In this document: in pieces, positions 34,119 to 38,061 of the stretch
Layout: every line of letters begins with the position of its first letter
How positions within the stretch are numbered: the stretch's first letter is position 1
Source: Granulicella sp. L46
Lineage (GTDB): Bacteria; Acidobacteriota; Terriglobia; Terriglobales; Acidobacteriaceae
Reading direction: 5' to 3'
Length of the DNA stretch: 55,765 bases
Assembly (NCBI RefSeq): GCF_009765785.1
Contig: NZ_LMUT01000009.1
Coordinates: forward strand, 174,913 to 230,677
The notes under the pieces: model-generated
What the model saw: only the letters and a program-made list of their open reading frames with translations
Told to the model about the DNA's origin: nothing
Databases searched by the model: none
Position numbers and translations under genes: made by a program

Positions 34119-34137
34119 TTTTTTTCCCTCGCAACCT

Positions 34138-34163
34138 AACCGTTCCAGCATCCGCTTGTCTAA
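34138..34163 (+). promoter_or_regulatory. Candidate ECF-sigma-type promoter of the sigma operon
   Basis: AACC (34138-34141), a 16-base spacer and GTCTAA (34158-34163) match the general ECF promoter layout of an AAC-containing -35 and a GTC-containing -10. The ATG of the sigma gene follows eight bases after the -10, so the mRNA would be leaderless or nearly so. Autoregulation is inferred. Confidence 0.45.
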
Positions 34164-34171
34164 CCTCGCGA

Positions 34172-34786
34172 ATGGGAAATCTGGAGCAAGACGCGATCCG
34201 GCGCATCCTCGCCGGAGATCGAGACGCCTTTCGCGTGCTCATGGACCGTCATCTCCCCACCGTTCTTCGCATGACCTACCGCGTCACCGGCAACGCCGTC
34301 GACGCCGAGGAGGCAGCACAGGAAGCCTTCCTCCTCGCCTACAAGAAATTGCCGAGCTTCCGCGAGCAGGCGGCCTTCGGCACCTGGGTTTATCGCATCG
34401 CAATGAATTGCTCTCTCAATCTCGTCGAACGCCGCTCCCGCGATCTCGGCTGGGACGCCGTATCCATCGAGCCTGGTTCATCCACCGAAAACCTAGCCGT
34501 CTCTCCCCGCCTCACCCCTGAAGCCGCGCTCCTCAACAACGAAGCCCTCCGCCGTCGCGAGCGAGCCATGCTCACCCTCACTCCCATGGAACGCACCGCT
34601 TTCATCCTTCGCCACATGGAAGACCAATCCATTCAGGTCATCGCCGACGCCCTCGGCGTCCACACAAACTCCGCCAAGCAAGCCATCTTCCGCGCTGTCG
34701 CTAAACTTCGCCGCGAACTCGCCCCCAAGCCTCCCGCACCCTCCGCCCCGCTCGCCTCCACCGGAGGCACCAAGGACTCCCAATGA
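34172..34786 (+). CDS. ECF-type RNA polymerase sigma factor
   Basis: The start is ATG 34172; sequence further upstream in frame is antisense-like and overlaps the OsmC gene. The 204-residue product has sigma region 2 (about 15-95) with DAEEAAQEAFLLAYKKLPSF and TWVYRIAMN, and region 4 (about 135-190) with TPMERTAFILRHMEDQSIQ and a helix-turn-helix ending NSAKQAIFRAVAKLRREL. Region 3 is absent, as in ECF factors. The stop overlaps the next start (ATGA), the usual coupling of sigma and anti-sigma genes. Confidence 0.93.
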   Translation: MGNLEQDAIRRILAGDRDAFRVLMDRHLPTVLRMTYRVTGNAVDAEEAAQEAFLLAYKKLPSFREQAAFGTWVYRIAMNCSLNLVERRSRDLGWDAVSIEPGSSTENLAVSPRLTPEAALLNNEALRRRERAMLTLTPMERTAFILRHMEDQSIQVIADALGVHTNSAKQAIFRAVAKLRRELAPKPPAPSAPLASTGGTKDSQ

Positions 34787-36147
34787 CTCCCTTCCACCCA
34801 GACCTCGAAAACGACGCCGGCCACGCCATCGATCAGGACGACCTCATCGCCTTCCACCTGCACGAGCTCTCGCCCCAGCAGGAGCGCGCCCTCCACCGCG
34901 TCCTTCAACGTGACCCAGCGCTCCAATCCGAGTCCATCGCCATCGCCTCCACCCTCCGCGCCTTCCCCAAGCACGAAGCGCCTCTTCCTCTCGACCCCGC
35001 CGCGCTCGATCGCCACTGGCAAGCCCTGCGCAACTCCCTTCCCGTCCATGTCGCCACCGCTGGCATTCCCTCGCGCGGACTGTTCCCTCGATGGGCCTTC
35101 CCCGCACTCGCGGGATCTGTTCTCGCCACCGCAGCCTTGATCCTCGCGCCGCATCATTCTCCGCGTACAAGCAATCCCACCGTCGCGACCCTAACCCCAC
35201 CGACCATTCCAGCAGTCACCTCGAATGCCACACCCTCCATAGCCGCTGTACAGATAAATAATGCTGTACCGACCACGCAAGTCATACCGCCGACATCAGT
35301 TGCTGGCGGATCATTGCCCAACAACCCAACATCTCAACCCGCCGCGCCGATTCCTTCAAACCCCACTCAGACGCAGTCCGTCATCGCCCCACCCCCGACA
35401 CAAGCTCCGCCCGCAACAAACCTCATTGCTACAAATCAACAGCCTACCTCCCTCTCCTCCACCACCCCACCCGCTCCCACCTCGCTCAACCGAACGCATC
35501 CCACCTCTCGCCCTCATTACGACCGCACCACCGACATCACCCTCGCCGCGTTCGGCAACTTCACTCCCAGCAGATCCTTCACTTCCACCACCGGAACTGG
35601 AGACTCCGCGGTCACTGCCTCTTACATGCAGTCAACAACGCCAGCTGTTGGCGCGCTCGCGTCTTTCCACCAGCAATTTCGTCCCTGGCTCGGCTATCGC
35701 ATCACCGCGGCTCACTCCGAGCCCACGTTTGAATACACCTACCAAACTTCATCCGACGGACAGCCTTCATCCCTGGGAAATGTCGTCTATGAACATGTCT
35801 ACGAGTTCTCCGGAACATACGTCGTGCAGGGCCCACACCATCGCCGCATCTCCACCTCTGCCGAAGCCGGCGCCGGCGTTCTCGCCTTCCGCCCGCCGAG
35901 CTCCAACCTGGACAGCCCTCTTGTCGGCAACGCGGTGCGTGCTACCGCAGTCCTCGGCATCGCTGCCGAATACGCGCTTACCAAGCACCTGGCTCTGACC
36001 GCCGCATATCGCCTCCTGCTCTATAAAGCCCCATCCGCCTACTCGACCTTCGGCTCCATCGTCCCCCCCGCTCCCAACAACCTCACCCTCAGCAACGAGC
36101 CCGTCATCGGCCTCACCTATCGCTTCCACCCAACCCGCGAAGAGTAG
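34783..36147 (+). CDS. Anti-sigma-like protein fused to an outer-membrane-type beta-barrel
   Basis: The 454-residue product has four parts. Residues 1-100 resemble an anti-sigma domain: DDLIAFHLHELSPQQERAL is the helix pattern of zinc-type anti-sigma factors, but the Cys/His zinc ligands are missing. Residues 104-123 (WAFPALAGSVLATAALILAP) form one membrane helix. Residues 124-245 are a Pro/Thr/Ser/Asn-rich linker. Residues about 250-454 are an amphipathic beta-strand domain whose last strand ends LTYRF plus a short tail, like outer-membrane barrels. That domain resembles the protein encoded next at 36191. It should hold the sigma factor in the cytoplasm while contacting the outer membrane. 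Confidence 0.75.
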   Translation: MTPFHPDLENDAGHAIDQDDLIAFHLHELSPQQERALHRVLQRDPALQSESIAIASTLRAFPKHEAPLPLDPAALDRHWQALRNSLPVHVATAGIPSRGLFPRWAFPALAGSVLATAALILAPHHSPRTSNPTVATLTPPTIPAVTSNATPSIAAVQINNAVPTTQVIPPTSVAGGSLPNNPTSQPAAPIPSNPTQTQSVIAPPPTQAPPATNLIATNQQPTSLSSTTPPAPTSLNRTHPTSRPHYDRTTDITLAAFGNFTPSRSFTSTTGTGDSAVTASYMQSTTPAVGALASFHQQFRPWLGYRITAAHSEPTFEYTYQTSSDGQPSSLGNVVYEHVYEFSGTYVVQGPHHRRISTSAEAGAGVLAFRPPSSNLDSPLVGNAVRATAVLGIAAEYALTKHLALTAAYRLLLYKAPSAYSTFGSIVPPAPNNLTLSNEPVIGLTYRFHPTREE

Positions 36148-36190
36148 CCACCTCTCGCTCCCCACCAACAACTCCACCTCCGAGATTCCA

Positions 36191-36970
36191 ATGACCCCTC
36201 GCGCCCAAAAATCGCTTCGCATCATCGCCCTGACTCTCGCTGCCACCGTCATCTGCGCCCTTGCACTCGCCCAAACCACCGGCCACCCCGCCACTCCCTG
36301 CAAAGCCCTCTCCACGCAGCCCACTCCATTGCCCACGCACAAGCCCATTCCTTGCCGCACCCGGCTTCACACCGAAACTTCCATCTCTCTCGGCGCCTTC
36401 TCGCAACTCACCATCGACCGCACCGGCGAACTTTATGGCTCTACCGCGCAAGGCACCGCACCCTCCGCCGGGACGCTAGGCACCTTCCGCCAAACGTTCA
36501 GCCCCTGGCTCGGCTATTCCGTCAACCTCGGCTACTCCCGCGTCTCTGAGCAATATAAAAGCGATAGCGGCTATTACGGCATCCCGAACGAACTCAATAT
36601 CAACTCCAACATGTACGAGACCTCCGTCACCTACATCGCACACACCAGCGCAAACAAGCGCATCTCGCTCTTCGGCGACGTCGGCCCCGGTCTCCTTACC
36701 TTCCTTCCCATTCCTGGCAATGAGTATTCCGTCGTTGGCTCTCCAGATCAGATGGCCCTGACCGGCCTCTCCGTGCAGGTCCGCCCCACCGGCGTCTTCG
36801 GTTCAGGCGTCGATATTCACCTCAGTCGCCACCTCGATCTCCGCACCGAGTACCGCGGCCTGATTTATAACAACCCCGATTTCCGCACCGGCGACTACCT
36901 CTCCAAACGACTCACCCTCACCAGCGAACCCACCCTCAGCGTCGTCTACAACTTCACCCACCCCAAGTGA
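36191..36970 (+). CDS. Outer-membrane beta-barrel protein paralogous to the upstream fusion
   Basis: The 259-residue product has a signal peptide (about 1-28, cleaved after ALAQ) and a beta-barrel domain from about residue 63. ISLGAFSQLT, GTFRQTFSPWLGYSVNLGYS and the C-terminal strand TLSVVYNF match the barrel domain of the preceding gene (ITLAAFGNFT, ASFHQQFRPWLGYRITAAHS, VIGLTYRF). Size fits an eight-stranded barrel. It lies 43 bases after the fusion gene and is probably part of the sigma operon. Confidence 0.82.
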   Translation: MTPRAQKSLRIIALTLAATVICALALAQTTGHPATPCKALSTQPTPLPTHKPIPCRTRLHTETSISLGAFSQLTIDRTGELYGSTAQGTAPSAGTLGTFRQTFSPWLGYSVNLGYSRVSEQYKSDSGYYGIPNELNINSNMYETSVTYIAHTSANKRISLFGDVGPGLLTFLPIPGNEYSVVGSPDQMALTGLSVQVRPTGVFGSGVDIHLSRHLDLRTEYRGLIYNNPDFRTGDYLSKRLTLTSEPTLSVVYNFTHPK

Positions 36971-37032: not shown

Positions 37033-37971
37033 CTAATGCGCGTGCGCGTGATCATGCCCACCCGGTCCATGATGATGATGCGAGTGCCCATCCACCTCCG
37101 CAACCTCCGGCGGCGACACGCAACCATCCACCGTCGCACAGTCCGTCACCTCCAGCTGAATCGTCGCATGCTGAATCCCGAAGTGGTCCCTCAGTTGATG
37201 GTTGATCCGAGCCAGCAAATCCTCGCACTGCGCCAACTGCATCTCCACCACTTGCACATGGCACGCCATCGCATGGCTCTGCGACGTCAAGCTCCACACA
37301 TGCAGATCGTGCACATTCACCACCCCCTCAATCGTCTGCACCGCGATCCGAATCTCCGCCAGGTCCACACTCCGCGGCGTCCCCTCCAGCAGAATATGCA
37401 GCGTCTCCCGCACAATGCTCCACGAGCTGGCCAGGATCATCGCAGCAATAATCAAACTCAACAGCGGATCAATCCACTGTTGCCCCGTCACTGCAATCAC
37501 CAGGCCACCCACAATCACCGCCGCAGTTGACACCGTATCGCCCAGCATGTGCAGAAACACACTGCGAATATTCACGTCCCCCGAGAACTTCCACAGCAGC
37601 CCTGCGATCAGCCCATTCATCACCACGCCAGCCGCCGCAACGTACATCATCAAGTGCGGTTCCACGGTCACCGGATGGAAAAACCTTCCCACCGCCGCCA
37701 CCGCAATCCACACCGCCAGCACCATCAAGCTCAGCGCGTTCACAAATCCCGCCAGCACGCCTGCCCGCTGATATCCGAAAGTCCTCTCGTCGGTAGCCGG
37801 CCGCGCCTGCAGCCAAACCGCCACGAAGCTCAACCCCAGCGCCAGAAAATCCGACACATTGTGCCCGGCCTCCGACATCAGCGCCAGCGAATGTGCCCGC
37901 AGCCCGAAGAAAAACGTAGCCGCAATATAAAGCGCAGTAAGCGCCAGCGACCCCTTCAGGATCGTCTGCAT
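37033..37971 (-). CDS. Cation diffusion facilitator (CzcD/ZitB-like) metal efflux protein
   Basis: I favour ATG 37971 (MQTILKGSLALTALYIAATF), with GAAGA a few bases upstream; in-frame starts at 38001 (GTG) and 38055 are possible. The 312-residue product has six membrane helices. The metal site in helix 2 is SEAGHNVSDFLALG and in helix 5 HMLGDTVSTAAVI. The cytoplasmic C-terminal domain follows, with VHDLHVWSL, and ends in a His-rich tail (HSHHHH..HDHAHAH). It exports Zn or related divalent metals in exchange for protons. Confidence 0.92.
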   Translation of the reverse strand: MQTILKGSLALTALYIAATFFFGLRAHSLALMSEAGHNVSDFLALGLSFVAVWLQARPATDERTFGYQRAGVLAGFVNALSLMVLAVWIAVAAVGRFFHPVTVEPHLMMYVAAAGVVMNGLIAGLLWKFSGDVNIRSVFLHMLGDTVSTAAVIVGGLVIAVTGQQWIDPLLSLIIAAMILASSWSIVRETLHILLEGTPRSVDLAEIRIAVQTIEGVVNVHDLHVWSLTSQSHAMACHVQVVEMQLAQCEDLLARINHQLRDHFGIQHATIQLEVTDCATVDGCVSPPEVAEVDGHSHHHHGPGGHDHAHAH

Positions 37972-38061
37972 CCGCGTCTTCGACTTGGCTGTTCCAGTCA
38001 CCTTAATAGTGTAGAACGTCCACCCCCCGCCACCGCTCCGAGCCCACTCCTGCATGCACGG

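Follow-up and report, generated by a model that had tools for sequence, protein, structure and literature searches.

An ECF sigma-factor operon of Granulicella sp. L46 encoding an anti-sigma-like protein fused to a predicted outer-membrane β-barrel

Organization of the operon

The window analysed here is a stretch of 55,765 nucleotides from Granulicella sp. L46 (contig NZ_LMUT01000009.1, positions 174,913 to 230,677). The subject is a three-gene operon on its forward strand, in the order extracytoplasmic function (ECF) sigma factor gene, gene for a protein in which an anti-sigma-like domain is fused to a β-barrel, and gene for a free barrel. The sigma gene (34172–34786) encodes 204 residues that match PF04542 (region 2, E = 3.4e-16) and PF08281 (region 4, E = 1.2e-10), both above the Pfam cut-offs, and also TIGR02937 above its cut-off. 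The fused gene (34783–36147) is an open frame of 454 residues, and the ATGA overlap with the sigma gene reported in the initial annotation is borne out by these coordinates. The free-barrel gene (36191–36970; 259 residues) starts 43 bases past the end of the fused gene. A predicted autoregulated ECF promoter (34137–34163, forward strand) precedes the sigma gene, with TAACC at 34137–34141, a spacer and GTCTAA at 34158–34163.

Distribution of the fusion

The fusion is a real, conserved feature. In the following, loci of relatives are labelled L and genomes G; G000 is among the genomes with the fusion. Using a six-row profile and the best four candidates per genome, full-length fusions were found in at least eight of the 398 genomes of the family, in three genera: G000, G116, G174, G206 and G207 (genus g1), G552 and G735 (genus g35) and G637 (genus g32). 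Genome counts are lower bounds, the best four to eight candidates per genome having been scored in the large searches. The search of genus g1 gave five of 28 genomes. In a sample of the phylum (396 genomes, 210 genera), full-length matches among the best candidates occurred in Acidobacteriaceae only (G000, G116 and G552). Identity to the fused gene of the window is 35–42% in the five complete fused genes that were measured.

There are at least nine fused loci, of which eight are complete and one, a second copy in G206, is split by contig ends (G206a lies on two contigs and is taken to be continuous). An ECF sigma gene adjoins all nine (for the split copy in G206, on the contig that holds the N-terminal part), and a free barrel lies downstream at eight. 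The three-gene order, for which a search of the Acidobacteriota had been proposed in the initial annotation, therefore recurs at eight of the nine loci, all in Acidobacteriaceae. At the remaining locus (L034 in G116) the contig carries no free barrel and the genome yields no further match at E 1e-10; at least one lineage thus manages without the free barrel. The suspicion that an assembly or sequencing error had joined two genes is refuted and retains a vanishingly small probability, because the frame is open in eight complete fused genes from eight genomes of three genera.

The 414-residue frame of L060 in G188, with a Pro-rich stretch before its barrel, was considered as a second type of fusion and rejected; it has a signal-peptide-like N-terminus and no sigma match. 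The long frames of L043, L044, L045, L128 and L129 were also rejected: they match barrels but have no anti-sigma or sigma matches.

Anti-sigma-like domain, membrane helix and tether

The fused protein as a whole has no Pfam match. Residues 18–86 (34834–35040) form a predicted cytoplasmic, anti-sigma-like helical domain devoid of Cys, in which AlphaFold2 (34-row alignment) placed helices at 18–25, 31–43, 45–59 and 72–83. Block values of the predicted local distance difference test (pLDDT) are 81–93, with dips to 69 (residues 61–70) and 57 (residues 81–90). A weak anti-sigma similarity was detected by NF052375, which matches residues 21–140 with E = 1.4e-5 and a score of 25.2 bits, the curated cut-off being 100; the same model matched ten of 14 N-terminal domains in a wider set (E up to 1, best 3.9e-7). 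The domain can be aligned with those adjoining the same sigma factor in relatives that have no barrel. A sequence search of the PDB with the anti-sigma profile returned no credible solved relative, and a search of PHROGs returned no match. The first 90 residues contain no Cys in any of the six fused proteins examined, so the H-x3-C-x2-C motif of zinc anti-sigma (ZAS) proteins is absent from them.

The top hydropathy window of the protein, residues 104–122 (35092–35148; mean 1.84), corresponds to a predicted inner-membrane helix; the next (1.12) lies within the barrel, and a single membrane helix was found by hydropathy in all six fused proteins examined. Residues 123–248 (35149–35526) constitute the predicted periplasmic tether, 126 residues long, with 21% Pro, 29% Ser and Thr, 14% Asn and Gln and 4% charged residues. 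It is predicted to be disordered, with pLDDT below 50 across most of residues 86–237, and is 124–161 residues long in all eight complete fused proteins. The initial annotation had described an anti-sigma-like N-terminus without zinc ligands, one inner-membrane helix (at 104–123) and a linker of about 120 residues. All three agree with these results, the linker being rich in Pro, Ser and Thr.

A disordered tether would be easily cut and the operon supplies a separate barrel from its third gene in any case, both of which suit a polyprotein, in which constitutive cleavage of the tether would yield an ordinary inner-membrane anti-sigma factor and a free barrel from one gene. We regard this as unlikely. 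The hydropathy profile has no second hydrophobic export segment, no conserved signal-peptidase motif was seen by eye, without a dedicated predictor, and residue 123, right after the helix, is proline in the protein of the window; a proline after the helix blocks signal peptidase I. The fusion has also been retained at nine loci although eight of them have a separate barrel anyway.

Fused and free barrels

Residues 249–447 (35527–36123), followed by a short tail, were modelled as an eight-stranded barrel of the OmpA/OmpW type. Over the strands (250–447) the ten-residue block means of the AlphaFold2 model are mostly 88–98, with dips to 80, 73 and 62, and the last residues are at 52; we take it to show eight main strands and two outer hairpins. 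Sorted by E-value, the Foldseek matches of the fused protein begin with chains of Legionella porin I, at low template-modelling (TM) score, and continue with OmpA, OprG and OmpW; the TM score against OmpA is 0.61–0.64 over the target, and OmpX and NspA stand lower in the list. The free barrel is predicted to lie in the outer membrane. Its model comprises an N-terminal, signal-peptide-like helix (3–27) and eight main strands within residues 62–254, and its Foldseek matches are OmpA, OmpX, Ail and NspA. PF13505 matches both barrels below the cut-off, with E = 0.073 for the fused and E = 1.1e-4 for the free one. The models thus support two further claims of the initial annotation, a C-terminal barrel in the second gene product and a signal-peptide-bearing free barrel encoded by the third gene, and the PWLGY segments that it held to be common to the two barrels were confirmed in the alignment.

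Among eight fused barrels the mean pairwise identity is 0.43–0.79 in the modelled strands and periplasmic turns and 0.19–0.26 in the modelled outer loops, the pattern expected of a barrel with its loops outside. The location of the barrel is a prediction, which leaves some room for a barrel domain that stays in the periplasm, tethered to the inner membrane and not inserted in the outer one. Given this conservation pattern and a confident model nearest to solved outer-membrane proteins, such an arrangement is very unlikely.

In an alignment of barrel C-termini, the fused barrels, the free barrels of the operons and the nearest lone barrels have a short tail past the last strand; in more distant family barrels the chain stops right at the aromatic residue.

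Barrel-less relatives and the shared promoter

Nine Acidobacteriaceae operons contain the sigma gene with an anti-sigma gene that encodes no barrel: G201, G202 and G205 (g1), G098 and G168 (g35) and G180, G031, G095 and G148 (g32). The call for G148 is based on one match (17–120 in a 351-residue frame), the open-reading-frame check having found only its sigma gene. In genus g1, the sigma factor was matched at E 1e-45 in eight of 28 genomes, five with the fusion and three (G201, G202 and G205) with barrel-less anti-sigma proteins of 277–281 residues. All three genera contain both versions.

In the eight barrel-less anti-sigma proteins that were aligned, a cytoplasmic domain and helix of the same kind as in the fused proteins are followed by an unrelated, conserved periplasmic part. 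The H-x3-C-x2-C motif is retained in two members, G098 and G168; the three barrel-less sisters of genus g1 have no Cys there, like the fused proteins examined. Genes encoding secreted TPR/HEAT-like proteins were recognized by eye downstream of the barrel-less anti-sigma gene (L073, L074, L075, L037, L038 and L041) in the six of nine loci that were read, and Pfam confirmed two of the proteins, one each in L073 and L074. The TPR/HEAT gene of a barrel-less operon was matched in all three barrel-less genomes searched, including the genome that supplied the query, and had no match at E 1e-5 in any of the eight fused genomes.

The pattern TAAC-N17/18-GTCTAA-N7-9-ATG lies upstream of all 18 orthologous sigma genes examined (nine fused, nine barrel-less), and this common promoter supports both orthology and autoregulation. 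As the ATG of the sigma gene comes 8 nucleotides after GTCTAA, the operon transcript may be leaderless. A regulon scan with TAACC-N15-18-GTCTAA gave 13 matches in six genomes. A control with the pattern reversed gave more matches in four (matches versus control: G000, 2 versus 8; G201, 2 versus 12; G552, 1 versus 4; G098, 3 versus 12) and fewer in two (G174, 3 versus 2; G207, 2 versus 1). Five of the matches are the operons themselves in G000, G174, G207, G201 and G098, the G552 operon having TAACA and hence being unmatched. Behind the remaining eight, no recurring gene was seen by eye in the six genomes. The promoter scans accordingly point to autoregulation alone.

Comparison with known systems

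In the FecI/FecR/FecA system, an inner-membrane anti-sigma factor answers to a barrel in the outer membrane, as is proposed here; unlike here, the FecA receptor is a separate and far larger TonB-dependent protein. The present operon has no separate gene for a TonB-dependent receptor and encodes only small eight-stranded barrels. The RpoE/RseA/DegS system is comparable in its GTCTAA-like −10 element and in probable proteolytic release, and differs in that a separate protease reads the state of the outer membrane; the anti-sigma factor RseA is not known to carry a barrel. The initial annotation had contrasted the operon with these two systems as ones that signal through separate proteins. The contrast is fair for both, but the Dma proteins of Bacteroidota already unite the parts in one chain (PMC13088901; PMC9308784).

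According to PMC13088901, Dma proteins consist of an anti-sigma domain, one membrane helix, a long disordered tether and a C-terminal barrel; their genes adjoin ECF21 sigma genes, Dma2 lies in a three-gene operon, and Dma is stated there to occur solely in Bacteroidota. Control of the partner sigma factor and of vesiculation is a further trait of Dma. A Phocaeicola pair of the Dma type has been described as unusual, with envelope stress as its probable trigger (PMC9308784). These sources provide a precedent for the architecture and for control of a sigma factor (PMC13088901; PMC9308784). The protein of the window has the same four-part layout, with an anti-sigma-like domain at its N-terminus, and an adjoining ECF sigma gene, its barrel being assigned by prediction and fold match only. 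It differs in belonging to Acidobacteriota, in sharing sigma factor, promoter and anti-sigma domain with barrel-less Acidobacteriaceae operons and in being followed by a second, signal-peptide-bearing barrel. TIGR02985, a sigma model named for Bacteroidetes, scores 65.8 against a cut-off of 126.4 for this sigma factor. Layouts of this kind are already known; the phylum and an apparently independent origin are new. The system would work like Dma, and its membership by descent is unlikely, Dma having been compared through published descriptions.

With the barrel-less Acidobacteriaceae operons, the operon shares an orthologous sigma factor (57–73% identity), promoter, anti-sigma domain and membrane helix; those operons differ in their own conserved periplasmic part, the lack of a barrel and the TPR/HEAT-like genes downstream (six read). 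The transenvelope MlaD of Veillonella parvula also joins an inner-membrane anchor and a C-terminal outer-membrane barrel in one chain, but it is reported to serve lipid transport through a helical bridge and is not a regulator (PMC10665443). A literature search by title and start of abstract found no anti-sigma–barrel fusion for Acidobacteria or Acidobacteriota; that search was weak and also missed the Dma papers.

Phylogeny and origin

In a tree of 31 barrels, from which G735 and G637 were left out, the seven fused barrels included fall into a single clade (100/100), and the free barrels of the operons form a separate clade (100/99) that encloses one lone barrel of G218. In the sigma tree, the fused rows and their genus-sister rows form a firm clade (100/100). 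A single origin of the fusion would be allowed by these sequences. The simplest account would be that a barrel replaced the periplasmic part once, and that the fusion then either spread from genus to genus or was lost in some lineages.

Transfer of a Dma system from Bacteroidota would explain the identical four-part layout and the pairing with an ECF sigma factor (PMC13088901), and the trees contain no Bacteroidota row that could speak to it. We nevertheless consider it quite improbable. Sigma orthologues of the same family have the same promoter and barrel-less anti-sigma proteins, the anti-sigma domain can be aligned with those of the barrel-less relatives, local lone barrels match the fused barrel with up to 37% identity (E ~1e-37), and PF13568, present in the Bacteroides control, is unmatched in this genome. 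Because of the barrel-less orthologues and the shared promoter, and with trees that hold no other phyla, the fusion was most likely built independently in the Acidobacteriaceae, the origin of its barrel being presumed. Apparently a native sigma pair had its sensory module exchanged, a periplasmic one giving way to one in the outer membrane, since fused and barrel-less operons share sigma factor and promoter in all three genera.

A broader joint claim can be put forward tentatively, as a serious possibility. Envelope-spanning anti-sigma proteins would have evolved at least twice, in Acidobacteriaceae by a change of sensor in which the native sigma factor kept its promoter and inhibitor domain and lost the periplasmic domain and the TPR/HEAT partners. 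The inhibitor would have gained a barrel and the operon a related free barrel as its product. As a competitor of the fused barrel, either for the same ligand or for barrel assembly, the free barrel would close the loop.

Proposed mechanism

We consider it probable that the operon encodes an envelope signalling unit whose fused protein connects the sigma factor with the outer membrane in a single polypeptide, in the manner of Dma but independently built. This reading starts from gene order, conservation, homology to the barrel-less operons and promoter conservation, together with the predicted folds; from these we infer membrane location, sigma binding, the signal, proteolysis, the origin of the barrel and the regulon. 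The ECF sigma factor would be retained at the inner membrane by the N-terminal helices, with the single membrane helix acting as an uncleaved signal anchor. From there the disordered tether would span the periplasm to the barrel, which would be inserted in the outer membrane and expose its variable loops on the outside. If the barrel changes, be it through a ligand, damage or an assembly failure, the periplasmic part may be cleaved first; intramembrane proteolysis would follow and free the sigma factor to transcribe its own operon and so to produce more sigma factor, inhibitor and free barrel. The barrel would have replaced the periplasmic part of a native anti-sigma protein. The genome has a strong Peptidase_M50 gene, but so do all 14 control genomes.

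That one polypeptide could tie the sigma factor to the outer membrane, as the initial annotation had suggested, is made plausible by the single helix (six of six), the confident barrel model and the long tether (eight of eight). Its companion idea, competition or pairing of the free barrel with its fused counterpart, fits co-inheritance at eight of nine loci, G116 being an exception.

Several observations weigh against the envelope-spanning arrangement or its independent origin. The anti-sigma domain scores far under the curated thresholds, a sequence search gave it no credible relative of solved structure, and the membrane helix (105–120 in the AlphaFold2 model) has low pLDDT. Foldseek alignments of the fused protein have a large root-mean-square deviation (about 7 Å and more) and a low TM score over the query, the latter because the query takes in the disordered part. 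Variable loops are usual in any outer-membrane barrel and are not specific evidence of ligand sensing. The separation of fused from barrel-less sigma factors is weak (63/31), and both trees consist of Acidobacteriaceae rows only, which alone cannot rule out a donor elsewhere.

Within the envelope signalling unit, and not exclusive of it, the barrel might serve as an assembly reporter, a version that we hold to be possible but rather doubtful. As a client of the barrel-assembly machine, a barrel that failed to insert would expose the chain to a DegS-like protease, and the sigma factor would read assembly capacity and not an outside ligand. The tie of barrel and inhibitor in a single chain suits this version, as does the Dma-type pair of Phocaeicola, which is reported to be induced by a toxin together with many genes that respond to a BamA inhibitor as well (PMC9308784). 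However, the three-gene operon includes no protease gene, and ligand sensing through the variable outer loops fits equally well.

Each of the three genera contains this sigma pair both with and without the barrel, under one promoter type, which makes the contribution of the barrel testable by comparison or by module swap.

Flanking genes

Two neighbouring OsmC-family genes (PF02566; 33049–33474 and 33609–34034) lie just upstream of the sigma gene, and a cation-efflux gene of the zinc transporter type (37033–38055, reverse strand) is convergent with the operon. These flanks were not found at the 11 further loci in the comparison, which include several short contigs. Both are matched in G174, where an OsmC gene likewise lies upstream of the operon and an 80% identical cation-efflux gene occupies the same place.

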